The notes below the pieces were generated by a model that had not been told where the DNA came from, did no database searches, and worked only from the letters and a program-made list of their open reading frames with translations. The translations under genes and the position numbers were made by a program. A DNA stretch of 64,000 nt from Salinivirgaceae bacterium (GTDB lineage: Bacteria > Bacteroidota > Bacteroidia > Bacteroidales > SZUA-534): the NCBI GenBank assembly GCA_017474765.1, contig JAFVGW010000025.1, forward strand, positions 1 through 64,000, read 5' to 3'. This document shows, one piece after another, positions 11,347-42,696 of the stretch. How positions within the stretch are numbered: the first letter of the stretch is position 1; each line of letters begins with the position of its first letter.

Positions 11347-11844
11347 TTATAAAGAATTGATTTTCATGGCTGTTAATCCTGTGTATTTACTAATCAATTC
11401 AACTGACATGCCATCTGCTTTCATACGGCGGGCAATAGTTATCAAATTACTATCATCAGTGATATCACCATTATCGAGAACGGATGCCCACTCGTTCCAA
11501 TCGGTTTCAGAAATGATTTGCTCAACCTGTTGCCGCAGTGGCTTCATATCGTTGACGGCAGTGTTATATAGTTCCTTTGGGTCGATGGTCGCATAGTCGT
11601 GAACAAGCACATGCCGCATTCCCTGAACAACCTTCCACGGAATTTCAGGATGCGATTTTTTGAAGTCGCTAGTCAGCATAAAAGCCGCTTCGCCAACAAT
11701 CTCCACATTTTTAATTACCGAATAGTATGTGCGCTTGTCGGCCACGAGTTCATCGAAAGAGTAACCGTCGATGAGCATCGTCACATTATTGGAATACTCC
11801 ACAATGTCCTCCAATCGACCTTTATCTCTCGCTCGTTCTCTCAT
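11347..11844 (-). CDS. hepT: HepT-like ribonuclease toxin (DUF86) with C-terminal extension
   Basis: 165 residues. The toxin core covers about 1-115 and carries the HEPN signature RX4HXY as RHVLVHDY, with YSVIKNVEIVGEAAFMLT upstream. A further 45 residues follow the core; the last 28 (ARRMKADGMSVELISKYTGL plus eight more) resemble the small helical tail found in Rpn-type nucleases and other Bacteroidota proteins. HepT toxins cleave or block RNA and are neutralised by MntA, in one characterised system by polyadenylylation of the tyrosine in this motif. The partner gene lies directly upstream and overlaps by 23 bp, so translation is probably coupled. Confidence 0.85.
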   Translation of the reverse strand: MRERARDKGRLEDIVEYSNNVTMLIDGYSFDELVADKRTYYSVIKNVEIVGEAAFMLTSDFKKSHPEIPWKVVQGMRHVLVHDYATIDPKELYNTAVNDMKPLRQQVEQIISETDWNEWASVLDNGDITDDSNLITIARRMKADGMSVELISKYTGLTAMKINSL

Positions 11845-12130
11845 AAATCAGTTTTTTATCGCGATTGGCACTTTCAGCCGCATACGGGCGTAGCGTTCCT
11901 TCAACAACCAAATCAACTTCGCGGCCCAGCAACTCCTTCAAATCCATATACATACCTCCGTGAGTGAAAAGAGTGAAAGGCTTACCAGAATAATCAGGTA
12001 CAAAAAGAATATCGATGTCGCTTGTTGGGGTTTCTTCGCCACGAGCGAAAGAACCAAAAAGCCATGCTTTTAAAACAGGCTGCGTCTTGAAATAATCGGC
12101 AATTGTTTTTTGTATCTGATTGGTGCTCAT
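11822..12130 (-). CDS. mntA: MntA-like nucleotidyltransferase antitoxin
   Basis: 102 residues from the ATG at 12130 (MSTNQIQKTIADYF); a start at 12184 would add an unlikely 18-residue stretch. The minimal nucleotidyltransferase motif GSX10DXD is intact (GSFARGEETPTSDID), and a third acidic residue is available in EVDLVVEG. In the MntA/HepT system this enzyme transfers AMP to the toxin's RX4HXY tyrosine. Antitoxin first and toxin second, with overlapping ends, is the usual order. Type VII toxin-antitoxin by family. Confidence 0.87.
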   Translation of the reverse strand: MSTNQIQKTIADYFKTQPVLKAWLFGSFARGEETPTSDIDILFVPDYSGKPFTLFTHGGMYMDLKELLGREVDLVVEGTLRPYAAESANRDKKLIYERTSER

Positions 12131-12245
12131 GCGCGAAACGTTTTGATTATTGAACAAAGATAAACAATAATAAACAACTTTCACAATTCAGTCTATCCAA
12201 GACAAAAAAGTCTGAAAACGGAAAAAAGATTCCGAGAAGACAACC

Positions 12246-12908
12246 TTAATTCTCCAATCTCCCCACTTCATACCCAGCCACCTTCACCGCCTCAATCACC
12301 ATTTGCAGGCGCTCGGCGCTTTGAGGAAGGCGGTCGTGAAGAAGGATGATGGCACCGGGGCGCAGTTGGCGGCTGATTCGGCGCGCTATTTTGGCGTTGT
12401 TGGCACCGTTTGTGTCATAGGTGCGGATGGTCCAGCCTATGGTTTTGAGATTCAGGTTTTTGACAGCCTTGCCGATGGTTGGATTTGTAACGCCAAACGG
12501 CGGGCGGAAAAGCGTTGTTGTGCTGCCCGTGGCCTGCTCAATGGCCTGTTGACACCGACGGATGTCGGCAAGCATACGGCCGCGGCCGAAAAGCGGAAAG
12601 CCGTTTGCGTGGCTAAAACTGTGTATTCCAATCTGATGCCCTTCGTCGGCCATACGCTTGAGCAGAGCCTCGTTGCCAGCAATGCGGCTGCCGATGCAGA
12701 AGAACGTGGCTTTGGCGTTGTTGCGCTTCAACACGTCGAGCACTTGGGGTGTCTGCTCGGCGTCGGGGCCGTCGTCAAATGTCAGATACACAACCTTTTC
12801 AGCAGTCTTGACACGGCACAGAGCCTTCACATACACTTGCGATTTTATGCTGTACGAAGCGTAAAACAAGAATGCCAGAATGGCGGCGGCGGCGAGTGCG
12901 ATAATCAT
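12246..12908 (-). CDS. Polysaccharide deacetylase (NodB domain), membrane-anchored
   Basis: 220 residues. An N-terminal hydrophobic segment (about 1-20) anchors or exports the protein. The NodB domain shows all main motifs: TFDDGP (metal and base aspartates), HSFSH (metal histidines), RPPFG and LLHD. CE4 enzymes remove N- or O-acetyl groups from polysaccharide such as peptidoglycan or chitooligosaccharide. It is the last gene of the minus-strand ketosynthase operon; related genes occur in aryl-polyene-type clusters of Bacteroidota, so it may act on the glycan or lipid carrier of that product. The gap to the gene upstream is filled with repeats, so co-transcription is inferred. Confidence 0.88.
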   Translation of the reverse strand: MIIALAAAAILAFLFYASYSIKSQVYVKALCRVKTAEKVVYLTFDDGPDAEQTPQVLDVLKRNNAKATFFCIGSRIAGNEALLKRMADEGHQIGIHSFSHANGFPLFGRGRMLADIRRCQQAIEQATGSTTTLFRPPFGVTNPTIGKAVKNLNLKTIGWTIRTYDTNGANNAKIARRISRQLRPGAIILLHDRLPQSAERLQMVIEAVKVAGYEVGRLEN

Positions 12909-12919
12909 TGTTTGTTTCT

Positions 12920-13036
12920 AACCGATTTAACCCGATTTTATCCGATTTATGCGGACGCGATAAATCGCGTCCCTACCAACCCCCAACACCTAATACCCAA
13001 CACCAAAAATCCTAACTACTAATTCCTAAATCCTAA
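12920..13036. repeat. Composite of simple dispersed repeats between operon genes
   Basis: Three repeat types stand side by side: three CCGATTTa-type units (12922-12950), a GGACGCGAT palindrome (12953-12972), and C/T/A-rich units such as CCTAACTACT (12974-13036). The last type runs into the 3' end of the neighbouring ketosynthase-like gene, whose final residues GRG and stop come from it. Confidence 0.7.
12953..12972. repeat. Dispersed palindrome GGACGCGAT-aa-ATCGCGTCC
   Basis: Perfect nine-base arms with a two-base spacer. A close relative occurs at 24320-24341. Both are intergenic. This resembles REP-type palindromes. Confidence 0.75.
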
Positions 13037-13039
13037 CTA

Positions 13040-13945
13040 CTACCCCCTACCTAACAAAATCAGCGAATGGTTTATATGTTGGTAGTCGCTTATTATCAGT
13101 GTTTTATTGGCAGTGGAATTGTTTATTGCAAAATCCAGAGCCCGCGCCGAGAGTGTCGGGTAGTCGCAGGTTTTGAATTGTAACGGCTTGTTTTTCAGCG
13201 ACAAACGCTTTTTGATATTGTCGGTGGTTGCGGTGTTGCAGTTGGCCACAATGCATAAATCGCTTATTTCTATGCCATTGCGGTTGGCCGTCTCAACAAT
13301 CCATTCAATCAGTTTGTCGTCGGTCAGGCGACCGCTGCGGGTGTCGATGTCGAGCACTGCGGCACTTTTGTTGCCCGATGCGGTGGCGTTCAGAACGAAG
13401 AAGTTGGCGCCCTCGCCAAGTTCGTATTCGCGCGTCATTCCAAGGCGGCGCTGAATGTCGGCCGACGAAGCGGTAATCTCGTCAATCGCGCCAAGCAGAA
13501 CATTCTTTTTGCCCTCGTTCACCTGCATTGCAGCGTCAATCAGCGCACTCTCGAAACTCAATCCGCGGTGGGCGTAAGTAACATTGTATGAGTGAATTCC
13601 GCGCAGCAGGGCAATCTGTCCGCCAATGGTGTTGAAGGTGGACTGAATGAACGGCGTGGGGTTCAGAAGCCGCTCGCTGTTGGCTACAATCGACTCGATA
13701 AACTTTTCTGTATCAGCCAGACAGCCGAATCCAGTGGCCGTGATAATGGCGTCGATGCTTTCGGGTGTCAGTCCCTCGATGCACTTCAGGCCGCAGGCTA
13801 CGCCCATTTTCACAATTCGGCTCATACGGCGGCGCAGCGCGGGGTCGGCAATAATTTCCTTGTAATCGAGCACAGCCTCAACGCCGTCCATAACGAGTTG
13901 GTCGTTAGCAATTTGGCAGGTTCGTGTGATGTAGACAGGTTTCAT
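13040..13945 (-). CDS. Ketosynthase-like protein without active-site cysteine
   Basis: 301 residues resembling the short beta-ketoacyl-synthase N-terminal-like family (Ketoacyl-synt_2) found in aryl-polyene and flexirubin clusters. The family stretch NPTPFIQSTFNTIGGQIAL is present. Where a true ketosynthase has its nucleophilic cysteine, this protein reads SYNVTYAHRGLSFESAL, with no cysteine, and no HGTAT motif is found. A chain-length-factor-like or structural partner of the neighbouring ketosynthases is the likely role (inference). Start ATG at 13945 (MKPVYITRTCQ). Its 3' end lies in simple repeats. Confidence 0.72.
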   Translation of the reverse strand: MKPVYITRTCQIANDQLVMDGVEAVLDYKEIIADPALRRRMSRIVKMGVACGLKCIEGLTPESIDAIITATGFGCLADTEKFIESIVANSERLLNPTPFIQSTFNTIGGQIALLRGIHSYNVTYAHRGLSFESALIDAAMQVNEGKKNVLLGAIDEITASSADIQRRLGMTREYELGEGANFFVLNATASGNKSAAVLDIDTRSGRLTDDKLIEWIVETANRNGIEISDLCIVANCNTATTDNIKKRLSLKNKPLQFKTCDYPTLSARALDFAINNSTANKTLIISDYQHINHSLILLGRG

Positions 13946-13953
13946 TTTGCTTC

Positions 13954-14021
13954 TGCGTTTTCCGTCAGCGCTTGCGCTGCTTTGTATTTAATTGTTTTTC
14001 AGTGTTTCTCGTGGTTTAATG
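13954..14021. repeat. Dispersed repeat, diverged copy C
   Basis: Shares the core CCGTCaGCGCTTGCGC and a trailing GTGTTT..CGTGGTTtAA with copies A and B at 15.5-15.8 kb, but is shorter and more diverged. It fills the gap between two ketosynthase genes. Confidence 0.65.
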
Positions 14022-14028
14022 TTTTGTG

Positions 14029-15213
14029 TCAGTCGGCCCGTGAAAACACCAGCGACGTATCGTTTCCGCCGAATCCGAAAGCATTCGACAGCACGTTGCG
14101 CACGCGGCGTCCTTCGGCAAATTCGGTTTCAGGCGCAAGCCCGATGGCCTCGTCAGCCGACTTAAAGTTAAGGTTCGGATAAACGTATCCATTTTTCACT
14201 GACAGAGCCGAATATACAGCCTCAATGCCTTCCGACGCGCCCAGTGTGTGGCCGATGAACGCTTTCACCGAACTGAACGGCGGCACGCGGTCGCCGAAAA
14301 TACGGCGAATGGCGGTTGCTTCCGATAGGTCGTTGTTGGGTGTGGCTGTGCCGTGAACGTTAATGTAATCAATTTCAGACGGTTGCAGACCTGCCACCGC
14401 CATTGCTGCGCTCATTGAGCCGAAGGCGCCGTTGCCCTCGGGCGAGCAGCCCGTTTGGTGGTAGGCGTCGTTAGCGTTGGCGTAACCCGTTAAAAGACAG
14501 TAAGGTGCGTGTGCGGCGTCCTCGCTGCGCTGCAAAACAATGTAGCCCGCGCCCTCGCCAAGGTTCAGCCCCGCGCGGGTGGCGTCGAACGGGCGGCAGT
14601 GCTCTTTATCGAGAATCATTAGCGAGCCGAATCCGTTCAGCGTGAACTTGCAGAGCGCGTCGGTGCCGCCAGCCACAACAGCGTCAAGCATATTGTGCTG
14701 CAGCATTCTCGCGCCAAGCATAATGGCGTTGCCCGCCGACGAGCAGGCCGTGCTGATGGTGGTTACAAAGCCACTGATTCCCAGTTGGTTGGCTATAAAT
14801 TCGGTGCTTGCGCCGCAGTCGTGCTGACTCACAAGGCGCAGCCGTCCGCGGTTGTGGTCGGTGCGGAAATCGTTGTAGAACACCTCGCTCAAATCCATTC
14901 CGCCCACCGAAGTGGATGAAATGAAGCCCACGCGCTTTTTGCTGACGTCGATGCCAGCGTCGGCCACAGCCTCACGCGCGGCCATAAGCCCCAGCAGAGC
15001 GGTGCGCGAATAGGTGCGTTCGGCGTTGAGATTCAGGCGTTTGGCAAGTTCGGTGTTCGTCGCTTTCACTTCCGACACGGGCACGTCGAGCGTGGTTTGG
15101 AAAAACCGTGGTTTCCCCATTCCGTGCCGCCCCGTGCGCAACGACTCAATGTTTTCACTCACACCAAAGCCGATGCCCGACACCGCGCCGAGTCCCGTAA
15201 CCGCAATCCGCAT
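14029..15213 (-). CDS. Beta-ketoacyl-ACP synthase (FabF/KAS II type)
   Basis: 394 residues, full length. Condenses malonyl-ACP with a growing acyl chain. The active site is complete: Cys157 (STACSSAGNA), His287 (NVHGTATPNN) and His322 (FIGHTLGASEG). The N-terminus MRIAVTGLGAVSGIG starts directly at the first strand. It abuts the acp gene without a gap and belongs to the operon running from 18544 down to 12246. The C-terminus (NAFGFGGNDTSLVFSRAD) is typical. Fatty-acid housekeeping FabF would lie next to acpP-fabF in a different context; the paired ketosynthases and thioesterase here favour a specialised polyene or lipid product. Confidence 0.9.
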   Translation of the reverse strand: MRIAVTGLGAVSGIGFGVSENIESLRTGRHGMGKPRFFQTTLDVPVSEVKATNTELAKRLNLNAERTYSRTALLGLMAAREAVADAGIDVSKKRVGFISSTSVGGMDLSEVFYNDFRTDHNRGRLRLVSQHDCGASTEFIANQLGISGFVTTISTACSSAGNAIMLGARMLQHNMLDAVVAGGTDALCKFTLNGFGSLMILDKEHCRPFDATRAGLNLGEGAGYIVLQRSEDAAHAPYCLLTGYANANDAYHQTGCSPEGNGAFGSMSAAMAVAGLQPSEIDYINVHGTATPNNDLSEATAIRRIFGDRVPPFSSVKAFIGHTLGASEGIEAVYSALSVKNGYVYPNLNFKSADEAIGLAPETEFAEGRRVRNVLSNAFGFGGNDTSLVFSRAD

Positions 15214-15474
15214 TTATTTTTTCTGATTGGCGGTGATGTATTCGGCCAGCGTTTTCACCGAGTAGAAAATCTCTTTTCCCTGTGCGGGATTCTCAATTTT
15301 GATGCCGTAGTTGCGCTCCAGAATCAAGATAATCTCCAGTGCGTCAATCGAATCCAAGCCCAGACCGCCGTCGCCGAAAAGCGGTGCTTCAGCGTCGATG
15401 TCGGCGGGGGTTACCTCCTCAAGATTCAGTTCGGCAATCAGTTCGCCTTTAAGTTTTTCAATCAATTCTTCCAT
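15214..15474 (-). CDS. Acyl carrier protein
   Basis: 86 residues. The phosphopantetheine attachment serine is Ser42 in GLDSIDALEI. The variant DSID in place of DSLD is usual for ACPs of aryl-polyene-like clusters. Acidic, four-helix length. It carries the acyl chain for the two catalytic ketosynthases in this operon. It ends on the base before the next gene starts. Confidence 0.92.
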   Translation of the reverse strand: MEELIEKLKGELIAELNLEEVTPADIDAEAPLFGDGGLGLDSIDALEIILILERNYGIKIENPAQGKEIFYSVKTLAEYITANQKK

Positions 15475-15537
15475 TATTCCTGCGTATTATATTGAATTTT
15501 AAATAGTTATCAATCTTATATTTCTTCCTAATAGTTT

Positions 15538-15660
15538 CGTTGGCAATTTATTCATTTTTAGCGCTTTCGCGATATCAGCCCTCAAAAATCCGTGTTTTCC
15601 GTCGGCGCCTGCGCCGCTTTTAAGCATTATTTTCCGTGATTTCAGTGTTTTCCGTGGTTA
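15538..15660. repeat. Dispersed repeat, copy A
   Basis: About 123 bp containing TTTTAGCGCTTTCGCGATAT, the hairpin core GGCGCcTGCGCC and the end GTGTTTTCCGTGGTTAA. It matches copy B exactly 148 bp further right over its whole length with scattered mismatches. Confidence 0.8.
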
Positions 15661-15685
15661 AAAAATTCCGTCGTTCAAAAATCTC

Positions 15686-15808
15686 CGTTGTCAATTCATT
15701 CAATTTTAGCGCTTTCGCGATATTAGTTCTCATTTTCCGTGCCCTCCGTCGGCGCTTGCGCCGCTTTTCTTGCACTTTTTTCCGTGTTTTCTGTGTTTTC
15801 CGTGGTTA
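15686..15808. repeat. Dispersed repeat, copy B, overlapping a gene end
   Basis: Second copy of the repeat, 148 bp from copy A. Bases 15723-15808 are read as the last roughly 28 codons of the fused ketosynthase gene, and the stop codon lies inside the repeat. Confidence 0.8.
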
Positions 15809-17624
15809 ATCTCGGTTTAGTCGCTCTGCGCCGCGGCTTACGTGGTTTCTCAACTTCCGCAGCCTCCGCCGTTTCTGTCATATCTCCCTTATCTCCCTTA
15901 AAACCAGTGTTTTCCAACAGATTGAGATTCACCCTGTAGCGCGAGCCAATCAGTTCGAGCCAGCCCGTGATGCAGTAGCGCAGATTCTGACGCTCCATTG
16001 CCTTCTCAATATATTTCATTGTCACCTCGCTCTCGTGCCCCTCGCGGATGAAGAAGGTGTTTTCGCCCTTGATTTTGTAGCGGATGCAGATTTCGCCCAC
16101 CACCACGTTCGGCAGCGTGTAGACGAACACCGACGGGCTTGCCATTGCGTCGCCCTGCTCGCTGATGATGCGCTCGTGGTCAAGGTCGGTGTCGAGCGAG
16201 CCCACGGCATTCATAACGATTATGCCCATTTCTTCGGGCTTAAACTCTACATTGTTAAGCAGATAGCCAGCAGCCACATAGCCCAGTTTGCACAGATTGT
16301 CCATTTTGTAGAACTTCAGATTCTCGTCGCCGAGTTTCTTGAACGCCTCGCGGATGAACGTTCCGTATTCGGTTGATTTCGAAGAGAATACAATCCGCTT
16401 GCCGACTTTAATCTGCGAGTTGAAAACCGAAATCGACCGTATGCTCCGCAACTGTGCGGGCTGCGTTTCGAGTTCGGGTTTGGCGTATTGTGGAAGCGAC
16501 AGCACAATGGCGGCGTTGCAGCCCCCAAATCCCGACGCCGTCTTCACGCAGTGGCGCATTTTCCTGATTCGCTGATGCTCGGCCGAAACCTTGAGCGGCA
16601 TTGGCGTGCCAGGCTTTTCGTAACCGAATGTGCCAAAAACAGTTCCCATTCGCAGTTCGTGGGCGCAGACAATGGCCTCAATAATTCCCGACGCGCCCAG
16701 CGTGTGGCCGAAATACGGCTTCAGGCTTTGCACGGGGCAGTTTTGCAGTTCGGCCAGCGTCACGGCTTTCGACTCCATTTCGTCGTTGTAGACGGTGGCC
16801 GTACCGTGGGTGTTCACAAAACTGATGTCGGCGGGCTCCACGCCAGCCTCGCGCATTGCCCCGCGAATGGCCAGGTTCAGTTCGTAGCCCGTGCGCGAAG
16901 GGCCCGATATGTGGTTGGCGTCGTTACTGATGGCGCCGCCTGCCAGCAGAATGCTGTTCTCGTCGTAGTTTGGCGACAGCAGCACGGCACCCGCGCCCTC
17001 GCCAAGGTTCAGGCCGTCGCGGCGCGCGTCGAACGGCACGCAGCGTTTGGCGCTCAACGATTTGAACGACTTGAAACCGCTCGTGATGAAGTGGGTGAGC
17101 ACGTCGCAGCCCGCCACAATCACGCTCTCGTACACGCCAGCCTCAATGAGCCGCTTGCCCACAATCATTGCCGAAAGACCTGATATGCAGGCGTTTGACA
17201 CGATAATCGGACGGTTGGCCGCACCAAAATAGCGCCCGATGCGGTCCGATGTTTTCCAGAGCGACACGCGCCCGTCCTGCGACTCCGCGGTGTGGTCAAT
17301 CAGCACCGAGTTTCCTTTTGTGGTTGAAATGACAATGCCTACCGTCTTGTCTTCCAAATCGATATGCGTTTGGTCCAGAATGTCGGTGATGGCCATTATC
17401 ACCAGTCGCTCAAATTTGGTGTATTGCGATTCCAAGTCGAGAATCTTCGACTCAAGCCTGATAGAGTGGTCGTGAAACTCCGACATTACAATCGGTGTGT
17501 CCGACACGTCGGAAGTGGTGTGATTCGTGAGCCCGCTTCGGTACGAGCAGAGCGCCGCAAGGTTCTCCTGCGTGCCGAATCCTATCGGCGTTACAATCGA
17601 GTCGGCGTTTATGTAAATCTTCAT
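15723..17624 (-). CDS. Fused ketosynthase with C-terminal ketosynthase-like domain
   Basis: 633 residues from the ATG at 17624 (MKIYINADSIVTPIG), which starts at the first ketosynthase strand; a start at 17678 would add 18 unrelated residues. Residues 1 to about 380 are a complete ketosynthase: Cys146 (SNACISGLSA), His273 (NTHGTATVYN), His307 (YFGHTLGASG). Residues about 400-590 form a second domain (FYKMDNLCKLGYVAAGYLL ... FVYTLPNVVVGEICIRYKI) like the short stand-alone synthase-like proteins of aryl-polyene clusters. The last 45 residues are lysine/arginine-rich, then low complexity (TTENTENTEKS), the final part encoded by repeat copy B. Two KS-type condensing activities with one ACP fit a type II polyene pathway. 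Confidence 0.82.
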   Translation of the reverse strand: MKIYINADSIVTPIGFGTQENLAALCSYRSGLTNHTTSDVSDTPIVMSEFHDHSIRLESKILDLESQYTKFERLVIMAITDILDQTHIDLEDKTVGIVISTTKGNSVLIDHTAESQDGRVSLWKTSDRIGRYFGAANRPIIVSNACISGLSAMIVGKRLIEAGVYESVIVAGCDVLTHFITSGFKSFKSLSAKRCVPFDARRDGLNLGEGAGAVLLSPNYDENSILLAGGAISNDANHISGPSRTGYELNLAIRGAMREAGVEPADISFVNTHGTATVYNDEMESKAVTLAELQNCPVQSLKPYFGHTLGASGIIEAIVCAHELRMGTVFGTFGYEKPGTPMPLKVSAEHQRIRKMRHCVKTASGFGGCNAAIVLSLPQYAKPELETQPAQLRSIRSISVFNSQIKVGKRIVFSSKSTEYGTFIREAFKKLGDENLKFYKMDNLCKLGYVAAGYLLNNVEFKPEEMGIIVMNAVGSLDTDLDHERIISEQGDAMASPSVFVYTLPNVVVGEICIRYKIKGENTFFIREGHESEVTMKYIEKAMERQNLRYCITGWLELIGSRYRVNLNLLENTGFKGDKGDMTETAEAAEVEKPRKPRRRATKPRLTTENTENTEKSARKAAQAPTEGTENEN

Positions 17625-17650
17625 TTCTGATGTTTGCTTTTGGCTGTAGG

Positions 17651-18109
17651 TCAATCTTTTATCCAACGTTTCTGCCAATCGGCGTAGAACGGCGGGTTGT
17701 TCAGTTCAAGTTCGCGCGTTTGGGCGTTCACAAACACCTGGACCGAACTGCCCGTGGCGGCCACCGTGTTGTCCGACGCGCGGTAGATGGTGTAGTCGAA
17801 CATAATCTTCGCCGCCGCCGTGCGGATGTATCGCGTCTCAATGATGGCCTCCTCGCCAAACGTGAGCGACTGCTTGTATTGGCAGTTCAGTTCAACCATT
17901 GGCGCCAGGAATCCGCTGTTGAAAATGTCCATATATTTCAGGCCGTCGTAGTGTTTGCCAAACGACTCGCGCCCGTCCTCAAAGTATCGGATGTACTCGC
18001 CGTGCCACACCACCTGCATAGCGTCAACCTCGCTGAACCTTACGGTGATGGTCTTGCGGTCGGTGAGAACGGCTTCGCGTATTTTGTTTTTTGTCTTCAT
18101 TATCAACAA
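17651..18109 (-). CDS. Acyl-CoA/ACP thioesterase, hotdog fold (4HBT)
   Basis: 152 residues (149 if the ATG at 18100 is used). Hotdog-fold thioesterase with the 4HBT signature FSEVDAMQVVWHGEYIRYFE, in which Asp and the following VVWHGEY segment form the usual active-site region. It would release or trim the acyl chain from the ACP, or edit misloaded chains. Only 6 bp separate it from the upstream dehydratase and 26 bp from the downstream ketosynthase, so it is within the operon. Cytoplasmic. Confidence 0.85.
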   Translation of the reverse strand: MLIMKTKNKIREAVLTDRKTITVRFSEVDAMQVVWHGEYIRYFEDGRESFGKHYDGLKYMDIFNSGFLAPMVELNCQYKQSLTFGEEAIIETRYIRTAAAKIMFDYTIYRASDNTVAATGSSVQVFVNAQTRELELNNPPFYADWQKRWIKD

Positions 18110-18115
18110 TTTCCT

Positions 18116-18544
18116 TTAGTCGATTTTAAGAAAAATTTTCATTCGGCACTCGGCCACAGTTCCGTCGTTGTCTTCGGTCTTCGCCGATATGAGCGACAGT
18201 CCGCCCATTTCCTGCAGCACGCTGATTTCGGTCTGCATTTGGCTGCCCACCTTCGGCAAGTGGCTGATTGTCAGTTTATCAACCGACCCGATGAACCCCA
18301 GCGGCACCTGCTCGCCGCACTGAGTGAAAATGTAGCCCACGCGGGCCGCCGCCGATTGCGCAATGTGCTCCACAATGCCAGGCTCGCGCAGCCGTCCGCC
18401 CTTGCAGAAGATGTTGCCGTCGGCCACCGTCAACCCCGACCGCGACACACCGTCCTCAATGCCGTAAAAGGCGTCCACCATAACCATTGGCGGGCGCTGC
18501 GGAATGAGTTTCAGAATGTCGGAATAAACCGTATCGTTTTGCAC
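18116..18544 (-). CDS. 3-hydroxyacyl-ACP dehydratase-like protein (ApeP/FabZ-like)
   Basis: 142 residues, hotdog fold. LIPQRPPMVMVDAFYG at the N-terminus corresponds to FabZ's PHRYPFLLVD, but the catalytic histidine position reads Gln. REPGIVEHIAQSAAARVGY corresponds to the central helix with the catalytic glutamate. The same Gln variant is, from memory, seen in other Bacteroidota cluster dehydratases, so inactivity should not be assumed. First gene of the operon; a -7 box lies 20 bases upstream of its start codon. Confidence 0.75.
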   Translation of the reverse strand: MQNDTVYSDILKLIPQRPPMVMVDAFYGIEDGVSRSGLTVADGNIFCKGGRLREPGIVEHIAQSAAARVGYIFTQCGEQVPLGFIGSVDKLTISHLPKVGSQMQTEISVLQEMGGLSLISAKTEDNDGTVAECRMKIFLKID

Positions 18545-18563
18545 GTCGAAAATTTTTAGTGCG

Positions 18564-20493: not shown

Positions 20494-23400
20494 ATGAAAA
20501 AGATTTTTATTTCAGTTTTGGGCCTTATGCTTGCTGGGCAGGTGTGGGCGCAAAAAACAGGACTTGTGGAAGACAATTCGGGATGGATTGTCGAAGGAAT
20601 CAACACTTCATCTTCAAGTTATGAATTGTACGAAGATGAAATTATCATCACCACTGCTAATTGCGAGTTTGCATGGGACACGCAATTGGCAACGCCCAGC
20701 TGGAAAAAAATCGGTAAAGTAGGCGACAGATTTAAATTGACTTTCGACGTACTTTATGAAGGTGAAGAATCCCCGGCAAAATTCAGAATTGCTTCGGGGA
20801 AAACATATCCGAACAATCCTGATTTTCAATCTTGGGATTATAGTGTTAATACTCAAATTGTTGATGCTGCAGGATTTGCACATATATATACAACCGATTG
20901 GGAAATTGACGAAGGCAAATGGACATCAGTAACCTATGATTATTTCATTGGAGCGCTGGGAGCCGATTCCATTCGGCTTGAAATAGACCATGGCTATATG
21001 CCTGGAACTTGGCACTTTAAGAATTTTGTTCTTGAAGTTGCGGGCGTGGTTAAATACGAATATCTTTTACCATCGGCCACTAACATAAACAGCATCATCA
21101 ATGGAATAAAGTATAAGATTTCCGACAGCACCGCGATTGTGATGGGCAACACTTTGGGCGATAGTGTTAAATCTATTGCCATTCCTTCAACCATAACTAT
21201 CGACAGTGTCGAATACATTGTGACTGCCATTGGCAATTCGGCATTCAGCGGTTGCTCCAATCTGTCTTCAGTAATCCTTACTGATTCAATAAAAAGCATA
21301 GGAAAATCGGCATTTAAAAGGTGCGCTAATCTAAAAGCAATAACCATTCCCAATTCGGTAACCAGTATTGGTGATGAAGCCTTCTACGGATGCGGAAGTC
21401 TGGATTCGATAACCATTCCTGATTCAGTCAAAATCATCGGTAAATCAGCATTTTATGATTGTTCGAGCCTGAAATCGGTTGTCATTTCAAAAACGGTTAC
21501 CAGCATTGGAGAGAAAACGTTTTATGGATGCTGCAGTTTGGATTCAGTAATCATTCCTGATTCGGTTAAAACAATTGGTAACTATGCATTTGCCGATTGT
21601 TTCCTGTTGGTATCAGCAGTTATCCCCGAATCGATTACCAACATTAGTGATTATGCGTTTAAAAATTGCTTCAGTTCGGTTTCGTCAACTATTACTTTCC
21701 CCAGGACAGTTACCAACATCGGTGAAGGAGCGTTCTATCAGTGCGGCGGCCTGTCATCGGTTACAATTCCTGAATCGGTTACAAGCATCAGTGATTATGC
21801 ATTCTATTATTGTACTAATCTGACATCGATAACCATTCCTAATACAGTTACCAGCATTGGTGAAGGAGCGTTTGAGGGTTGTAGCGGCCTGACATCGGTG
21901 GTTATTCCCGAATCGGTTACCAGCATTGGCAAATCGGCGTTCGCTGCTTGCGGCAACCTGAAATCGGTTGTAATCCCCGAATCGGTTACCAGCATTGGAG
22001 ATTGTGCTTTCATCGATTGTAATAATTTGACATCAATAACCATTCCGAATTCTGTGACAAGCATAGGCGACGAAGCGTTCGATGGTTGCTCTGGTTTGTC
22101 AATCTTAACTATTCCTGAAACAGTTACCAGCATTGGCAACCTTGCATTCAATGGAATACCGCTTGTAATCTATTATGGTCCAGCGGAAGGCCAGCCTTGG
22201 GGTGCGAAATTTGTTAATTCCGATATCGATGAAGATGGGTTCATTTACGATATCAGAAGCAATAGAACCAAACTTATCGGATATATGGGGCAGGGAGGAT
22301 TTGTAGTCATTCCTAATTCGGTTACTTGCATTGGTGATAAGGCGTTCTATGAGTGCGACAACTTGGAAATTTTAGGATTTTCTGATTCAGTTAAAACTAT
22401 TGGTGAATATGCATTCGCCAACTGTGAAATGCTGAAATCTGTAACAATTCCAAATTCGGTTACTAGCATGGGTGACGGTGTGTTCTATAACTGCACTGAC
22501 TTGATGGATGTTTTCATGTCCAATTCGGTTACCAGTATCGGAAAGCAGGCTTTCTTTAATTGTTATAACATCGGTTCAATAACCATCCCCAATTCGGTGA
22601 AAAGCATAGGCGACGAAGCATTCGAGGCCTGCTCAAAACTGACATCGATTACCATTCCAAATTCAGTTACCAGCGTTGGCAAAGGAGCCTTCTATGATTG
22701 CGATGGTCTGACCACGGTTGTCATTCCCGAATCTGTTACCAACATTGGTGATGAAGCGTTCGTTAGTTGCGGTAACCTGAAAACGGTTATTCTTCCAAAA
22801 TCACTGAACAAAATTGCCAATTCTTTGTTCGCAAGTTGCTACAGTCTGACATCGATTACCATTCCCGAATCGGTTACCAGCATTGGTGATGCTGCGTTCT
22901 TTGGATGCGGCAGACTGGCATCAATTACTATCCCTGAATCAGTTACAGAAATTGGTGGCGGGGCGTTCAATGGGTGCATCGCACTGACTTCAGTCACTAT
23001 TCCAAATTCAGTTGTCAGTCTTGGTGGTCAGGTGTTTGATGATTGCAGCAGCCTTAAAACGGTGACTATTTCCAATTCGATTAAAAGCATTGGTTTTGAA
23101 ATGTTCAGAGGTTGCAGCAGCCTGGAATCGATTACCATTCCAGAAACAGTTACAAGCATTGGTGCGGCAGCGTTCCTCGATTGCAGCAGTCTTGCTTCGA
23201 TTACCATTCCAAAATCAGTTTCAAGTATTGATTTGAACGCTTTCTCAGGTTGCAGCAAACTGACAATTTATTGCAAGGTAAGTTCGAAGCCTTCAGGATG
23301 GGTTGATGATTGGAATCCGGATAATTGCCCGGTTGTGTGGACTGATGAGACCACCGTCGCCGAATCGTCAGCCCTCGCCGTTAGCATCTACGCCTACGGC

Positions 23401-23571
23401 AAAACCATTGTGATTGAGAACGCTACGGACGAAATCCACGTTTACAATGCGATGGGTGTGTTGGTTGGTGCAGACGCACGGCCGTGCATCTCTACGGAAA
23501 TCCGCGTTGAGGGCACAGGCGTTTACATTGTGAAGGTTGGCAATGTTGCCAAACGTGTGATTGTGAAATGA
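20494..23571 (+). CDS. BspA-like leucine-rich-repeat surface protein with T9SS sorting domain
   Basis: 1,025 residues. Signal peptide MKKIFISVLGLMLAGQVWA then Q. Residues about 20-200 form a beta-sandwich-like N-terminal domain. From about 230 to 950 there are roughly thirty LRR_5 units of 23 residues of the type SVTSIGDEAFYGCSGLTSI. They are interrupted once at about 555-610 by a non-repeat segment (LVIYYGPAEGQPWGAKF). The last 50 residues (IHVYNAMGVLVGAD ... GTGVYIVKVGNVAKRVIVK) match a type A T9SS C-terminal sorting domain. BspA relatives bind host proteins or other bacteria; the ligand here is unknown. sprA and porQ lie just downstream. Confidence 0.9.
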   Translation: MKKIFISVLGLMLAGQVWAQKTGLVEDNSGWIVEGINTSSSSYELYEDEIIITTANCEFAWDTQLATPSWKKIGKVGDRFKLTFDVLYEGEESPAKFRIASGKTYPNNPDFQSWDYSVNTQIVDAAGFAHIYTTDWEIDEGKWTSVTYDYFIGALGADSIRLEIDHGYMPGTWHFKNFVLEVAGVVKYEYLLPSATNINSIINGIKYKISDSTAIVMGNTLGDSVKSIAIPSTITIDSVEYIVTAIGNSAFSGCSNLSSVILTDSIKSIGKSAFKRCANLKAITIPNSVTSIGDEAFYGCGSLDSITIPDSVKIIGKSAFYDCSSLKSVVISKTVTSIGEKTFYGCCSLDSVIIPDSVKTIGNYAFADCFLLVSAVIPESITNISDYAFKNCFSSVSSTITFPRTVTNIGEGAFYQCGGLSSVTIPESVTSISDYAFYYCTNLTSITIPNTVTSIGEGAFEGCSGLTSVVIPESVTSIGKSAFAACGNLKSVVIPESVTSIGDCAFIDCNNLTSITIPNSVTSIGDEAFDGCSGLSILTIPETVTSIGNLAFNGIPLVIYYGPAEGQPWGAKFVNSDIDEDGFIYDIRSNRTKLIGYMGQGGFVVIPNSVTCIGDKAFYECDNLEILGFSDSVKTIGEYAFANCEMLKSVTIPNSVTSMGDGVFYNCTDLMDVFMSNSVTSIGKQAFFNCYNIGSITIPNSVKSIGDEAFEACSKLTSITIPNSVTSVGKGAFYDCDGLTTVVIPESVTNIGDEAFVSCGNLKTVILPKSLNKIANSLFASCYSLTSITIPESVTSIGDAAFFGCGRLASITIPESVTEIGGGAFNGCIALTSVTIPNSVVSLGGQVFDDCSSLKTVTISNSIKSIGFEMFRGCSSLESITIPETVTSIGAAAFLDCSSLASITIPKSVSSIDLNAFSGCSKLTIYCKVSSKPSGWVDDWNPDNCPVVWTDETTVAESSALAVSIYAYGKTIVIENATDEIHVYNAMGVLVGADARPCISTEIRVEGTGVYIVKVGNVAKRVIVK

Positions 23572-31100: not shown

Positions 31101-32657
31101 GTGAAATCGTCATTCACGGTGCTGAACGACAATCGTGTGAAAGTGACTGTGGATGAAGATGTTGACGATGCCGTAGTGACCATCACAGGCAAGCGGTTGA
31201 CGCACGATTCGCCCGTCCGTCGGGTGATGGAAGGGGTGGGGCTGGCCATCATCGGATTCAAAAACGTGTCGTTTGCCTACACCGAGTCGAACGCCATGAC
31301 GCTCGAAGGCTACAGGCCAAACTACAGTTTTGCCGAACTGCGCAAAACACCTGGTCTGGCCTTCATCTTTGGCTATCAGGACACCGCTTTCGCTGAGCGC
31401 GAAGCCCGCCGCGGCCACCTTATCGACAACATTAACCTGATTCAGCCGTTCCTGACATCGAACCAGCGCCGCGTCGACATCAAGGCAACCTATCAGCCCG
31501 TGAAGGCTCTCAAAATCGACTTCACAGGTCAGCGCACCATCACCAAAAAAACAAGCGAGTACTACCTGATGGGCAACTACGACGCCAAACACGACCAGTA
31601 CGATGTCTATCGTTCAACGCGCATGGAATCGGGTGCTTACAACGTAACTGTGTGGACGTTGAACACAGCCTTCGGCGACCGCCCGACAGAGAAAAACACA
31701 CAGTCGAAGGCGTTTGAAGAGTACCGCCGCAATCTTCACAAATTTGCGTGGGAACAGGCCAACATGCGCCGCGGCCACGAGCCCGACTATTTCCCCGCCT
31801 ACGAGCCTATGGGCGAGTCGGACACAACAATGCCTGCGGGCTATTCAATCTCGAACCCCGACATTGCCGTGCCAGCCTTCCTGGCCGCCTACACTGGGCG
31901 CAACAACGGGCAGGACTTCACCACATGGAAAAACTTCCGCCCTGGCTGGAAAGTCAAATGGGACGGTCTGACAGCCTACAAGCCTATCAGCAAGAAAGTC
32001 AAGAACATATCGCTCTCGCACGGCTACCAGAGCACCTTCAGTGTGGGCTCGTTCATGAGCAGCAAGGGCTACAACTACGAGCAGGCACGCAATCCAGAGT
32101 ACGGCAACATGTCGTGGTCGGTGGCCGAAGTGGGCGACGGCAGACTGTTTGTGCCTTACTACGACATCACATCGTTCTCAATAACCGAAGCCTTCACACC
32201 GCTGTTCGGTGTGGATGTGACGTGGCTCAACAGCCTGAGTTCGCGGTTCGAGTACAAGCGCAGCCGCACCATGACTATGAACCTGACCAACAGCCAGATG
32301 CTCGAACTCTACAAGCGCGAGTATGTGGTTGGCGCGGGCTACCGAATCCAGGAACTTGTGCTGCCGTTCAAGAACCGTCAGGGCGAGCAGTTTGTGAGCG
32401 ACTGCAATCTGCGTGCCGACTTCACCGTCAGCGACAACATCACCGTCACCCGCGACCTTCTGCTGCGCAACGATGAAATCACATCGGGCCAGTTGGGCCT
32501 GTCGATGAACCTGTCGGCCGAATACGAACTCAACGACAAGGTGACGCTGCGGCTCTACTACGACTACGACCTGATGAGCCCCAAAACCACCAACTCGTAT
32601 AAGAACACCACGGCTGAATTCGGCTTTGAGTTGAAATTCTCATTATCAAAACTTTAG
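25122..32657 (+). CDS. sprA: T9SS outer-membrane translocon SprA (Sov)
   Basis: 2,511 residues, in the usual range for SprA. It is the giant 36-strand barrel through which T9SS substrates cross the outer membrane. Signal peptide at the N-terminus (ALIAAFVMLAANVSA, then Q); ATG at 25122 or 25131. SprA N-terminal-type segments are visible (for example TASLKFGLKITNTENPNIAQ, and TFDFKENIQMSVAGKIG-like sequence). Periplasmic plug-region motifs include YIDDFESS and DPNIAIVKSLMIGVRNPL-like stretches. The sequence ends in barrel strands (ELNDKVTLRLYYDYDLMSP, FELKFSLSKL), a typical Omp85-independent terminal strand. Complete and undisrupted. porQ begins 3 bp after its stop. Confidence 0.96.
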   Translation: MRSMYGTKLCALIAAFVMLAANVSAQQTGDTAAPRYRIARPPRTPYEPVRPASNIGLKDPSNFTNEVEYDDETDQYIIHQKVGGVDVRPPFTMSREEYGDYDVNNSLKNYWRQRYRNESFERQGGSFTKFNVDNELFETIFGSNVIDIKPQGTASLKFGLKITNTENPNIAQSLRRQTIFDFKENIQMSVAGKIGDNLEMKISYDTESQFDFDNTINLKFQGKEDDIIQKIEAGNVSLPLSTSLITGSQSLFGVLTELKFGKLYVSTVISQQKGESKTITTQGGAQVSQFDVSAVDYDKNRHFFLSHFFRSQYDRALKQLPLIVTSVQITKVEVWVTNTKRSTENAHNIVAFMDLGEEREEYQMYNRKDRAVLNPNIGFMGNRAPDNNANTLYKQILGVPNVRNIDQVTKALADEGLAGARDYEKVEYARKLNSNEYTVNTQLGYITLNSALNGDEVLAVAYEYTVDGMSYKVGEFTSDGITNPDNLIVKLLKGSNFTPKYPNWDLMMKNVYSLDAYQLNAKDFVLEVEYYNNKSRVRKLSNAFLSEEIKNAKLLNLMGLDNLNSKNDYVEGGNGYFDFIPGVTVNTTNGRVYFPVVEPFGGHLHDTLGGDLQSKDFVFQELYDSTQYKAQQMTSKSKFYLHGSYKSSGGSEISLNSFNIPQGSVVVTAGGITLTENVDYTVDYSMGRVKIINESYLVSGTPIKVSLESNSTFSLMEKTLLGTHLDYRFSDRFNLGATVMHLNEKPTTTKVNVGEDPISNTIWGLNGSYEVELPLLTKFLDWLPLIETKEKSTMSLQGEYAQLVPGHNRRAVGKSGEVYIDDFESSESSYDMTNREAWTLASIPQGNIFREADLFNNIEAGYNRAKIAWYKIDPLMFQASSPVSKAEQSRLNAYRVPELNIYPNRDQSSGDAIYLTTFDVAFDPTIRGPYNYSTDDYDRTGRFRNPQDKWGGIMRETTTKNFETSNIEYLEFWMMDPFVEEDSLNPGGQLYFNFGNISEDVLKDSRKSYENGLPTNYPPDPAEYDETAWGRVPAVQKSNISFVNEESQRRYQDVGLDGLSSSSFSGGPSDEQVFFSTYLDRLESVLDPDVFREFRADPSGDDYHYFKGGDYDEAGYGIVDRYMNYNNPEGNSPVSTGSTSTYATSKPDVEDINGDYTLSEGESYFQYRVDLNRDNMMVGSNYIVDERNVTNSLPSGERKAVKWYLFRIPLNSNARQQVGDIEDFTSIRFMRMFLHGWQQKVVLRFATLDLVKGDWFTYDYDLKAGNEALLSNNENNDESAASFSISTVNIEENGSRAPVNYLLPVGVTREQDPSQTQLVELNEQSMTMKVTGLGDGYSKAVYKTINLDMRNYEKLKMFIHAEAVDDESSLSDDEITCFIRIGQDYTENYYEYEVPLKVTPWWTSRPYPDNNDNRRLVWPDDNSMEIIFSELVDAKLERNAEIKSGNPSVSQTMPYVVTTGSGRTKRRITVMGNPNIAIVKSLMIGVRNPLQKDNVFTNADDGQAKSAEIWVNELRLTDFNESGGWAAQGAVNIKMADLGNVNVAGSTTQAGFGSIEQSTSERSMEQTNSVDVAANIELGKLFPKDANVRIPMFMSYSRMAVNPEYNPFDPDVKIKEGTKGMSRSERKEYMDGIQDLTERRSISFTNVGVGQRTKKKQTSKADEENMTERQKKRQAKKNKNSNKTHFYSPSNLSASYAYVEEKHSDYSVKYDNTTTHSGSLNYTFNNQPKAIEPFKKSKLLKKPYLRIVGDMNFYLAPAQIAWRTGMKRQYNETKLRNISMGMTSGGEDYTPTCDKSFDWEREFSIKYNLSKGIKFTWMMNTMTIIEEPAGLIDKTNRTEYEQFKKDVWESIMEGGLAKEHNQKFTASYTVPINKIPLLNWTSLTARYASTYQWDRGPEVKDSSLYTGNTIGNTNQININAQGNLDNLYKKVKPLDELTKKYKQTREKRLAQKTETVKATKEGFKAKKGASKVVSHNLRTSDDIVVKVAVGGKEVKSSFTVLNDNRVKVTVDEDVDDAVVTITGKRLTHDSPVRRVMEGVGLAIIGFKNVSFAYTESNAMTLEGYRPNYSFAELRKTPGLAFIFGYQDTAFAEREARRGHLIDNINLIQPFLTSNQRRVDIKATYQPVKALKIDFTGQRTITKKTSEYYLMGNYDAKHDQYDVYRSTRMESGAYNVTVWTLNTAFGDRPTEKNTQSKAFEEYRRNLHKFAWEQANMRRGHEPDYFPAYEPMGESDTTMPAGYSISNPDIAVPAFLAAYTGRNNGQDFTTWKNFRPGWKVKWDGLTAYKPISKKVKNISLSHGYQSTFSVGSFMSSKGYNYEQARNPEYGNMSWSVAEVGDGRLFVPYYDITSFSITEAFTPLFGVDVTWLNSLSSRFEYKRSRTMTMNLTNSQMLELYKREYVVGAGYRIQELVLPFKNRQGEQFVSDCNLRADFTVSDNITVTRDLLLRNDEITSGQLGLSMNLSAEYELNDKVTLRLYYDYDLMSPKTTNSYKNTTAEFGFELKFSLSKL

Positions 32658-40993: not shown

Positions 40994-41025
40994 CAAGGAT
41001 TGATTAACTGAAGGACAGAATGGCG
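40994..41025. repeat. Dispersed repeat, inverted copy before the GldA-like gene
   Basis: CAAGGATTGATTAACTGAAG followed by GACAGAATGGCGG is close to the reverse complement of 34408-34440. The stretch up to 41066 contains further ATTCAATCC words and overlaps no confident gene before rpiB's stop. Confidence 0.5.
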
Positions 41026-41067
41026 GATGTTCTGCTCATTCGCACATTCAATCCTTCACACATTCAA

Positions 41068-41502
41068 TTAGTGTTTTACCGGAATTTTGTCGATGCGGCG
41101 TTGGTGGCGTCCGCCTTCGAAGCCGGTGCTCAGGAACGTGTCAACAACCTGCTTTGCCAAATCAACCGAAATGAATCGTGCCGGAATGGCGCAGATGTTG
41201 GCGTTGTTGTGCTGGCGTGCAAGCGCGGCAATCTCGGTGTTCCAGCACAAGGCCGAGCGTATGCCCTGATGCTTGTTGGCTGTGATGTTGATGCCGTTGC
41301 CGCTTCCGCAGAGCGTGATGCCCAAATCGAACTTGCCGGCCTCAACAGCCTCAGCAAGCGGGTGGGCAACATCGGGATAATCCATGCTCTCGGGCGAGTT
41401 GGTGCCGAAGTCGGTTACCGTGTGCCCTTTCGATTTAAGATATTCAACCAGAATCTGTTTGGTTTCAAAACCAGCGTGGTCGCTACCTATTGCTAAATTC
41501 AT
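41068..41502 (-). CDS. rpiB: Ribose-5-phosphate isomerase B
   Basis: 144 residues. Interconverts ribose 5-phosphate and ribulose 5-phosphate. Signature segments: IGSDHAGFETKQ at the start, LCGSGNGINITANKHQGIRS in the middle with the catalytic-type Cys, and HNNANICAIPARFI. Complete and normal in length. Preceded by a consensus promoter, so it is transcribed on its own. Confidence 0.96.
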   Translation of the reverse strand: MNLAIGSDHAGFETKQILVEYLKSKGHTVTDFGTNSPESMDYPDVAHPLAEAVEAGKFDLGITLCGSGNGINITANKHQGIRSALCWNTEIAALARQHNNANICAIPARFISVDLAKQVVDTFLSTGFEGGRHQRRIDKIPVKH

Positions 41503-41892: not shown

Positions 41893-42696
41893 ATGAAAAA
41901 GTTACTCACATTGTTTGTTGTGACTATGATGCTGGGAGTGGCATCAATCAATTGCGTTAACGCGCAAGACGAAGAGTCGGCTGCAACAACCGACACTACT
42001 GCTGTTGAACAGGCTGCTCCTGCAGCCGAAGAGGTTGCCGAGGATGCCATTGAGGGCACCAGCGCACACCAGGCTATCAAACAGAAATTCATCGAGGGTG
42101 GTGTAGGCTTTATGTCGGCCGTTATCCTCTGCTTGATTCTCGGTTTGGCCATCTGCGTTGAGCGTATTCTGTTCCTCAACCTCTCATCAACCAACACCAA
42201 GAAGCTGTTGGCAAAAATTGAGGCCGCTCTTAACGAGCAAGGCGTAGAGGCAGCCAAAGAGGTTTGCCGCAACAGCCGCGGTCCGGTTGCAAGCATCTTC
42301 TATCAGGGTCTCGACCGCTACGACGCAGGTCTTGACATGGTTGAAAAAGCCGTTATCTCTTACGGCGGCGTACAAACCGGTTTGCTCGAGAAGAACCTTT
42401 CATGGATTGCCTTGTTCATCGCTCTGGCTCCTATGTTGGGATTCTTGGGAACAGTTATTGGTATGGTGCAGGCCTTCGACTCAATCAAGGTTGCTGGTGA
42501 CATCAGCCCGGCATTGGTTGCAGGTGGTATTTCAGTCGCACTTATCACAACAATGGCCGGTCTTATCGTAGCCATGATTCTTCAAGTGTTCTATAACTAC
42601 TTCGTATCAAAAATCGACAGCATTGTCAACGATATGGAAGACGCATCTATCACTCTGACTGATATGCTTTATAAGTACAACTTGAAAAACAAATAA
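41893..42696 (+). CDS. exbB: MotA/TolQ/ExbB proton channel family protein
   Basis: 267 residues. The N-terminus is a signal-like hydrophobic stretch (LLTLFVVTMMLGVASI) followed by an acidic, alanine-rich region of about 45 residues, then the three-helix ExbB core (FMSAVILCLILGLAICVERI; LSWIALFIALAPMLGFLGTV; GISVALITTMAGLIVAMIL). The core motif LGFLGTVIGMVQAFD is typical. ExbB/ExbD uses the proton gradient to energise TonB or related outer-membrane machines. First gene of a four-gene operon with two exbD genes; tonB is not nearby. Confidence 0.93.
   Translation: MKKLLTLFVVTMMLGVASINCVNAQDEESAATTDTTAVEQAAPAAEEVAEDAIEGTSAHQAIKQKFIEGGVGFMSAVILCLILGLAICVERILFLNLSSTNTKKLLAKIEAALNEQGVEAAKEVCRNSRGPVASIFYQGLDRYDAGLDMVEKAVISYGGVQTGLLEKNLSWIALFIALAPMLGFLGTVIGMVQAFDSIKVAGDISPALVAGGISVALITTMAGLIVAMILQVFYNYFVSKIDSIVNDMEDASITLTDMLYKYNLKNK

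Follow-up and report, generated by a model that had tools for sequence, protein, structure and literature searches.

A seven-gene ketosynthase operon of a Salinivirgaceae bacterium, at 12246-18544 of contig C16 (JAFVGW010000025.1, assembly GCA_017474765.1), is in our reading the central block of an aryl-polyene gene set of the flexirubin (Flx) type whose remaining genes are distributed over five or more other contigs. Together these genes would likely make an outer-membrane aryl-polyene lipid, with the block as the predicted chain builder; we put the probability of this reading at roughly 80%. The stretch analyzed, hereafter the window, comprises bases 1-64000 of C16, and the genome (G000 below) amounts to 3.63 Mb in 62 contigs. 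The organism is likely a rumen bacterium, judging from five congeners of yak or water buffalo omasum, reticulum or rumen. The pathway itself is already known; what is new here is its dispersed, mosaic gene set. Among the hits listed by a search of the open-licence literature (titles and abstract openings) there was no report of dispersed aryl-polyene or flexirubin genes, or of such genes in rumen Salinivirgaceae.

All seven genes are on the minus strand, as the initial annotation had described, and family matches agree with the families it named:

18116-18544, minus: DH, FabZ-like hot-dog dehydratase subunit with a GTG start; NCBIfam FabZ E 2.5e-6, below cut-off
17651-18109, minus: TE, YbgC/4HBT-type thioesterase; PF13279 E 3.5e-16
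15723-17624, minus: KSfus, ketosynthase with an extra C-terminal domain; closest solved chain ApeO 6qsp_A, E 1e-36
15475-15722, minus: intergenic repeat element, CCACGGAAAACAC... and GCGGCGCAGGCGCC palindrome; further copies at 13952-14018 and in the KSfus tail
15214-15474, minus: acyl carrier protein (ACP); PRK09184, 78.7 bits (cut-off 70)
14029-15213, minus: KSb, ketosynthase; nearest NCBIfam family PRK09185, 333 bits (cut-off 407)
13040-13945, minus: KSlike, ketosynthase-like protein; PF13723 E 1.5e-12
12246-12908, minus: DAC, polysaccharide deacetylase, a recurrent cluster member; PF01522 E 6e-38

The open reading frame (ORF) of KSfus is listed as 15723-17678 with a TTG start, the ATG at 17624 being likelier. 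The family search gave no Pfam match for DH, and DAC is separated from KSlike by 131 bp, with a short direct repeat inside the gap. Reading frames of all seven genes are intact. In comparisons with the congeneric genomes G009, G002, G004 and G010, dN/dS was 0.06-0.26 for DH, TE, KSfus, KSb, KSlike and DAC (0.02-0.07 for FabF as a comparison), values indicating that the operon genes are under purifying selection and are not relics.

Related loci came from a search with the fused-ketosynthase profile, of whose 535 confirmed stretches the best 80 (79 loci) were kept; close relatives and the fused form are consequently over-represented in the counts. They come from Bacteroides, Parabacteroides, Alistipes, Proteiniphilum, Mucilaginibacter and other groups, and eight same-genus genomes are among them (six labelled Salinivirgaceae bacterium, two uncultured Bacteroidetes). 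A recurring Bacteroidales order emerges: HAL-KR-KS2-ACP2-LpxL-MT-DH-TE-KSfus-ACP-KSb-KSlike-DAC-LolA-(LolB-like)-DH2-GT2-MMPL-FAD, in which HAL is the ammonia-lyase, KR the ketoreductase, KS a ketosynthase, MT a methyltransferase and GT2 a glycosyltransferase. The window operon is the DH-to-DAC stretch of this order. Its suspected kinship with aryl-polyene and flexirubin clusters is thereby borne out, but the description of it as a "reduced" cluster does not hold, since it matches the middle of the complete Bacteroidales cluster in both gene content and order. Where at least 9 kb was available on both sides (43 loci), HAL was present in 31, the first MMPL gene (MMPL1) in 28, and both in 25; with at least 7.5 kb upstream, HAL was found in 43 of 60.

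The initial annotation had noted that ligase, ammonia-lyase, ketoreductase, acyltransferase and exporter were absent locally, and had allowed that the other half might lie elsewhere. Both points stand. A tblastn search of the 64-kb window with pathway proteins (E 1e-3) returned no ammonia-lyase, ketoreductase, FlxY-type ligase, LpxL or MMPL protein, nor any GT2, methyltransferase, LolA, GHFP-type second dehydratase or FAD protein. Five further contigs of this genome between them encode FlxA, FlxB, FlxJ, FlxY, LpxL, LolA, GT2 and MMPL. Located there, or on C22, by curated family or by genome search are:

C50 9685-11235: ammonia-lyase FlxA (HAL); NF053541, 871 bits (cut-off 700)
C50 8457-9680: KS2; genome search
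C50 8209-8454: ACP2; genome search
C50 7315-8199: LpxL-type acyltransferase; genome search
C3 ~102038-103123: methyltransferase FlxJ (MT); NCBIfam, 620 bits (cut-off 560)
C38 ~31552-32280: ketoreductase FlxB (KR); NCBIfam, 406 bits (cut-off 340)
C38 ~42074-42451: GHFP-type dehydratase DH2; genome search
C28 ~53630-54232: LolA; genome search
C55 6875-10777: MMPL-acyltransferase-methyltransferase fusion of 1300 residues; genome search
C55 ~13017-14315: PaaK-like ligase FlxY; NF053551, 687 bits (cut-off 520)
C22 4721-4963: ACP3, on a contig that also carries a MarR-type gene and KS3; genome search

C38 additionally carries a FAD oxidoreductase, a LolA-like protein, an MMPL exporter and a paralogue of the window DH, and C55 a GT2-DUF2062 glycosyltransferase; from synteny with contig C2 of G007 (MarR-KS3-ACP3-DHb-DH2-MMPL2), C22 is probably joined to the end of C38. 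The gene set is hence spread over C16, C50, C3, C28, C55 and C38/C22 and does not form one contiguous cluster. FlxA, FlxB, FlxJ and FlxY are all full-length and above the NCBIfam curated cut-offs. FlxA contains ASGD, is the sole aromatic-lyase match in its genome, and has a motif, NQDIVSMG, that we take to fit aromatic rather than histidine lyases. AMP-binding matches number eight in the genome, among them FlxY, the only one examined. A complete second cluster with its own ketosynthases, which would have spoken against the initial annotation, was also considered and rejected. Only a second FabB-like ketosynthase, ACP, dehydratase-type proteins and exporter occur (C22/C38), the three PF00109 loci outside the window (five in all) are of the FabF, KS2 and KS3 types, and no second copy of the window's own ketosynthases was found in the genome.

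By sequence, the gene set has the type II ketosynthase with half-size partner, the ACPs and the paired dehydratases of an Flx-type pathway. The catalytic Cys-His-His of KSfus is present in 32 of 32 aligned sequences. Its C-terminal part is a half-size ketosynthase-like domain (about residues 386-573), followed by a tail of some 60 residues encoded across the repeat. A profile of this domain (A4) matches N-terminal halves of ketosynthases (1e5m, E 4e-5), with ApeC absent among the matches listed, and aligns with profile A3 in hhalign at probability 77 and E 2e-5. The KSlike profile matches 7f28_A, the chain of the Acinetobacter ApeC counterpart (3.5e-7), and ApeC itself (6qsp_B, 7.6e-7), although KSlike as a single sequence reaches ApeC at E 0.018 only; its active-site Cys is found in 0 of 29 aligned sequences. 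KSlike is therefore a predicted chain-length-factor (CLF) partner, the half-CLF identity of both it and the KSfus domain being a profile-based assignment. The operon would accordingly encode two KS/CLF-like pairs, one of them fused as a single chain, with physical pairing inferred. Among the 79 named loci, ketosynthase and half-size partner are fused in 62, separate ORFs in 15 (Mucilaginibacter included; one, L135, appears interrupted) and absent in two.

The dehydratases would tie the block to another contig. The window DH retains the Glu of FabZ (EHIAQ) without the FabZ His; across its family the Glu of EHxAQ is kept in 50 of 50 aligned sequences, with no His at the FabZ position. The DH2 family, to which the partner on C38 belongs, shows GHFP in 34 of 34 and a Glu at the matching place in one of 34 (FabZ active-site positions were aligned by eye). 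According to one study, the aryl-polyene dehydratases ApeI/ApeP are heterodimers with one active site, and FabG was unable to substitute for the ketoreductase ApeQ in an in vitro aryl-polyene assay (PMC8041823). Since DH holds the Glu half only and DH2 the His half only, the operon is predicted to need distant loci.

In the proposed pathway, FlxA (C50) would deaminate tyrosine and FlxY (C55) would activate the product. The KSfus and KSb/KSlike pairs of the window may then elongate the starter on ACPs. Reduction would fall to FlxB (C38), and dehydration to a composite heterodimer of DH (window) and DH2 (C38). The ring would be methylated by FlxJ (C3), and the chain could be attached to lipid by LpxL and the acyltransferase of the MMPL fusion before transfer to the outer membrane by LolA/MMPL proteins.

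The same dispersal recurs across the genus, for which we compared 11 genomes. KSfus was found in all 11, as was MMPL1 (in pieces in G003, G004 and G010), and a FlxB orthologue of 95-100% identity in 10, the eleventh genome, G006, being 82% complete. The aromatic lyase FlxA was found in nine, once as a fragment; in G001 and G010, genome searches found none. Only G005 and G007 (2/11) have the FlxA module within 10 kb of the core; in G000, G002, G003, G004, G008 and G009 (6/11) it is on another contig, while in G010, G001 and G006 KS2-LpxL is on another contig and a complete FlxA was not seen. FlxB, away from FlxA, is grouped with a LolA-like gene in each of its 10 genomes, and a FAD gene accompanies it in the seven with a long enough contig (G000, G002, G003, G004, G007, G008, G010). 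LolA follows DAC in G001, G006, G010 and G016, accompanies GT2-MMPL1 in G002, G005 and G007, and stands away from both, on C28, in G000. Flanks are shared as well: LDcp neighbours the FlxA/KS2 module in G000, G003, G004, G009 and G010, and a RuvA-leucine-rich-repeat (LRR) flank borders the core in G000 and G009.

Synonymous divergence, taken as third-position differences (genes covered by less than 60% were dropped, KS2 of G016 was left out, and printed distances exclude G006 and G016), differs in pattern from module to module. For the core (KSfus and KSb), G000, G003, G005, G007 and G008 are near-identical (0.05-0.10). For HAL the corresponding set is G000, G002, G004, G005, G007 and G008 (0.05-0.10), with G003 and G009 as a separate pair (0.01) whose KS2 genes differ by 0.24. 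MMPL1 is near-identical (0.06-0.13) in G000, G002, G005, G007, G008 and G009, with G003 and G004 outside the set. KR forms one group of G000, G002, G003, G007 and G008 (0.08-0.12) and a second of G001, G004, G005 and G009 (0.09-0.17). The reference genes FabF and Rnc span 0.14-0.52 over the printed pairs, and the contrast with single modules is steep: 0.01 for HAL vs 0.21 in G003-G009, 0.05 for HAL vs 0.40 in G002-G004, and 0.09 for KR vs 0.50 in G005-G001. Fourfold-site counts agree in outline. Codon constraint alone was rejected as the cause, given that other genome pairs show differences of 0.20-0.53 in these very genes. In a wider comparison, for which the antisense shadow ORFs 17630-18559, 12303-13022 and 41020-41496 (all plus strand) were disregarded, low divergence was also seen in some non-pathway genes. 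Several of these adjoin pathway genes, which is what linked transfer would produce: NAD synthase (KR locus), a MATE-type gene (MMPL2), MarR (KS3) and LDcp (HAL, G004). Others, for example an aminotransferase-type gene on C3, are not accounted for in this way.

This discordance between modules suggests independent exchange. An ancestral single cluster of the genus was probably broken into modules (the core; FlxA-KS2-ACP2-LpxL; MT; LolA-GT2-MMPL; FAD-KR-LolA; KS3-ACP3-DHb-DH2-MMPL2). Species then appear to have traded these modules separately. In its fullest form, to which we give even odds, this proposal has the pathway exploded into at least five conserved unlinked modules, each of which, and not the entire cluster, is the unit of horizontal exchange within the genus, and that would act in trans as one synthase, with dehydratase half-sites encoded on different contigs, and make a polyene lipid without a resorcinol ester.

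Other explanations of the isolated operon must be weighed against a dispersed Flx pathway. The initial annotation had offered a distinct short pathway to an envelope lipid or polyene. Taken as self-sufficient and independent of the scattered Flx genes, such a pathway would borrow FabG and FabZ from fatty-acid synthesis. The compactness of the block, its purifying selection and the presence of KSfus in 11 of 11 congeneric genomes would suit it, as would the retention of the operon in the two genomes that yielded no aromatic lyase, G001 and G010, in which a FlxA-independent role is therefore possible. We nevertheless regard it as improbable: many named Bacteroidales carry a full cluster with this operon at its centre, the window DH is without the FabZ His, FabG could not replace ApeQ in vitro (PMC8041823), and a FlxB-family ketoreductase persists at 95-100% identity in all but one of the 11 genomes. 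With the required ketoreductase and second dehydratase encoded elsewhere in the genome, that part of the initial annotation is set aside. Decay is less probable still. An operon left as a remnant of a cluster lost after fragmentation could account for the two of 11 genomes without an aromatic lyase, and for a gap in G010 that falls exactly between the usual neighbours; the intact frames, the retained catalytic residues of KSfus, dN/dS of 0.06-0.26 for six of the seven genes and full-length FlxA, FlxB, FlxJ and FlxY in the same genome all argue against it. Equally slight is the chance that the separation reflects assembly or binning and that the genes truly form one cluster, as a draft of 62 contigs and the contiguity of the FlxA module with the core in G005 and G007 might invite one to think. 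Unrelated genes flank the modules, these flanks (LDcp; RuvA-LRR) are conserved in separate genomes, and FlxB, MMPL1 and the KS3/MMPL2 set lie off the core contig even in G007, an assembly of 30 contigs.

Several points nonetheless weigh against our reading of the operon and its dispersal. Dispersal is not confined to it: 17 of the 60 loci with sufficient upstream sequence lack HAL, five from the window's genus and 12 from other groups, and those 12 imply that dispersal, or another starter, occurs elsewhere too. The FlxA module stands beside the core in two of 11 species, where it was never split or has rejoined, and G001 and G010 retain the core without FlxA. The genus genomes are all drafts, with contamination of 0.7-8%, and, should contigs abut, as little as about 4 kb could separate some modules, C22 and C38 being probably adjacent by synteny. 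KSb scores below the cut-off of its NCBIfam family (PRK09185). The divergence analysis uses only two reference genes, FabF and Rnc, and the wider comparison is broad in range, with some non-pathway genes unusually similar.

In its gene content, the pathway resembles the flexirubin cluster of Chitinophaga pinensis. The FlxA, FlxB, FlxJ and FlxY families are represented here above curated cut-offs, and the several ketosynthases, dehydratases, polysaccharide deacetylase, LolA, glycosyltransferase and exporter that PMC3992019 describes for the flx cluster are likewise present; FlxA and FlxY of C. pinensis are shown there to act on tyrosine and 4-coumarate. C. pinensis has one cluster (Cpin_1853-1877) and a separate darB/darA locus, whereas here the genes are spread over six contigs or more and searches gave no close DarB. 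In Bacteroides and Parabacteroides (for example B. acidifaciens L122 and P. gordonii L130), arylpolyene clusters carry the central block genes in the same order, contiguous over about 20 kb where ours are dispersed; in B. xylanisolvens an arylpolyene-type cluster is said to resemble the flexirubin cluster (PMC12940132). According to PMC8253772, PMC8358021 and PMC8041823, the ape systems of E. coli CFT073 and of Xenorhabdus/Acinetobacter share a ketosynthase with a half-size chain-length factor (ApeO-ApeC), to which the matches with 6qsp_A, 7f28_A and 6qsp_B correspond, as well as a FabB-like ketosynthase (ApeR), a heterodimeric dehydratase and LolA/RND-type export. E. coli differs in having a single 15.5-kb cluster whose 18 genes share one orientation, a 4-hydroxybenzoate starter activated by ApeH in place of ammonia-lyase and FlxY, and ApeO and ApeC as separate proteins, whereas KSfus is one chain.

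If the E. coli system (PMC8253772) is a guide, the likely product is an aryl-polyene acid joined to a sugar or to a membrane lipid. The dialkylresorcinol synthase DarB of G002 scores 569.8 bits (cut-off 550), and with it as query DarB was found in four of 11 genus genomes (G002, G010, G006, G001). The same query found none in G000, a search that could miss a distant DarB and did not extend to DarA; the product is therefore probably not flexirubin proper, a polyene-dialkylresorcinol ester, and no such ester is expected. In G002, DarB (L111 4588-11672) has an ACP, a ketosynthase and a ketosynthase-like gene of its own and transporter-type genes as neighbours, and we assign this as a separate resorcinol-type locus from its gene content. 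G001 and G010, both without an aromatic lyase found, carry DarB.

Genome-mining tools that seek clusters would miss such a scattered pathway or call it incomplete, as nearly happened in the initial annotation, and the aryl-polyene capacity of gut and rumen Bacteroidales may therefore be under-counted. Under the "selfish cluster" idea, pathway genes should travel together. If modules do trade singly, contrary to that prediction, the genus would be a test case for why pathways in bacteria are clustered in the first place.

Further observations concern the junctions. In G010 (L089 1297-3749), FlxA is gone exactly between its usual neighbours LDcp and KS2, which are 56 bp apart. The LpxL-MT-DH junction resembles an insertion hot spot, with small accessory genes named by eye:

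L057 11629-12000 (G007) and L058 11292-11660 (G005): four-helix-bundle type gene
L061 3855-5204 (G008): DUF4143-type ATPase

The GCGGCGCAGGCGCC palindrome repeat occurs at 13952-14018 and 15475-15820, in operon gaps and the KSfus tail; the 64-kb window holds three matches to its consensus, two of them overlapping, against 0.01 in shuffled sequence. Breakage mediated by the CCACGG repeat of the operon gaps was considered (22 matches near vs 8 away from pathway genes) and is unsupported, because most matches are orthologous copies of core-operon sites and because G000 has none at LpxL, MT or DH ends. Loci L053-L056, L103 and L110, around weak leads, entered only these repeat checks and the reference-gene checks.

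A HepT/MNT toxin-antitoxin-type pair lies immediately downstream of DAC (11347-12184), and a HepT-MNT pair also splits the DHb-DH2 block in G009 (L196); on C55, a PIN-domain-like gene (by eye) stands between MMPL1 and GT2. A leucine-rich-repeat surface protein (BspA-like, by eye) at 20494-23571 adjoins the operon, and a relative of it (33% identity) flanks the core operon in G009 (L063). The ORFs at 1-2372 and 61317-63998 extend past the window ends and apparently have an N-terminal domain in common; the right-hand one, whose beginning is in L054, contains collagen-like GEKGDKG repeats.

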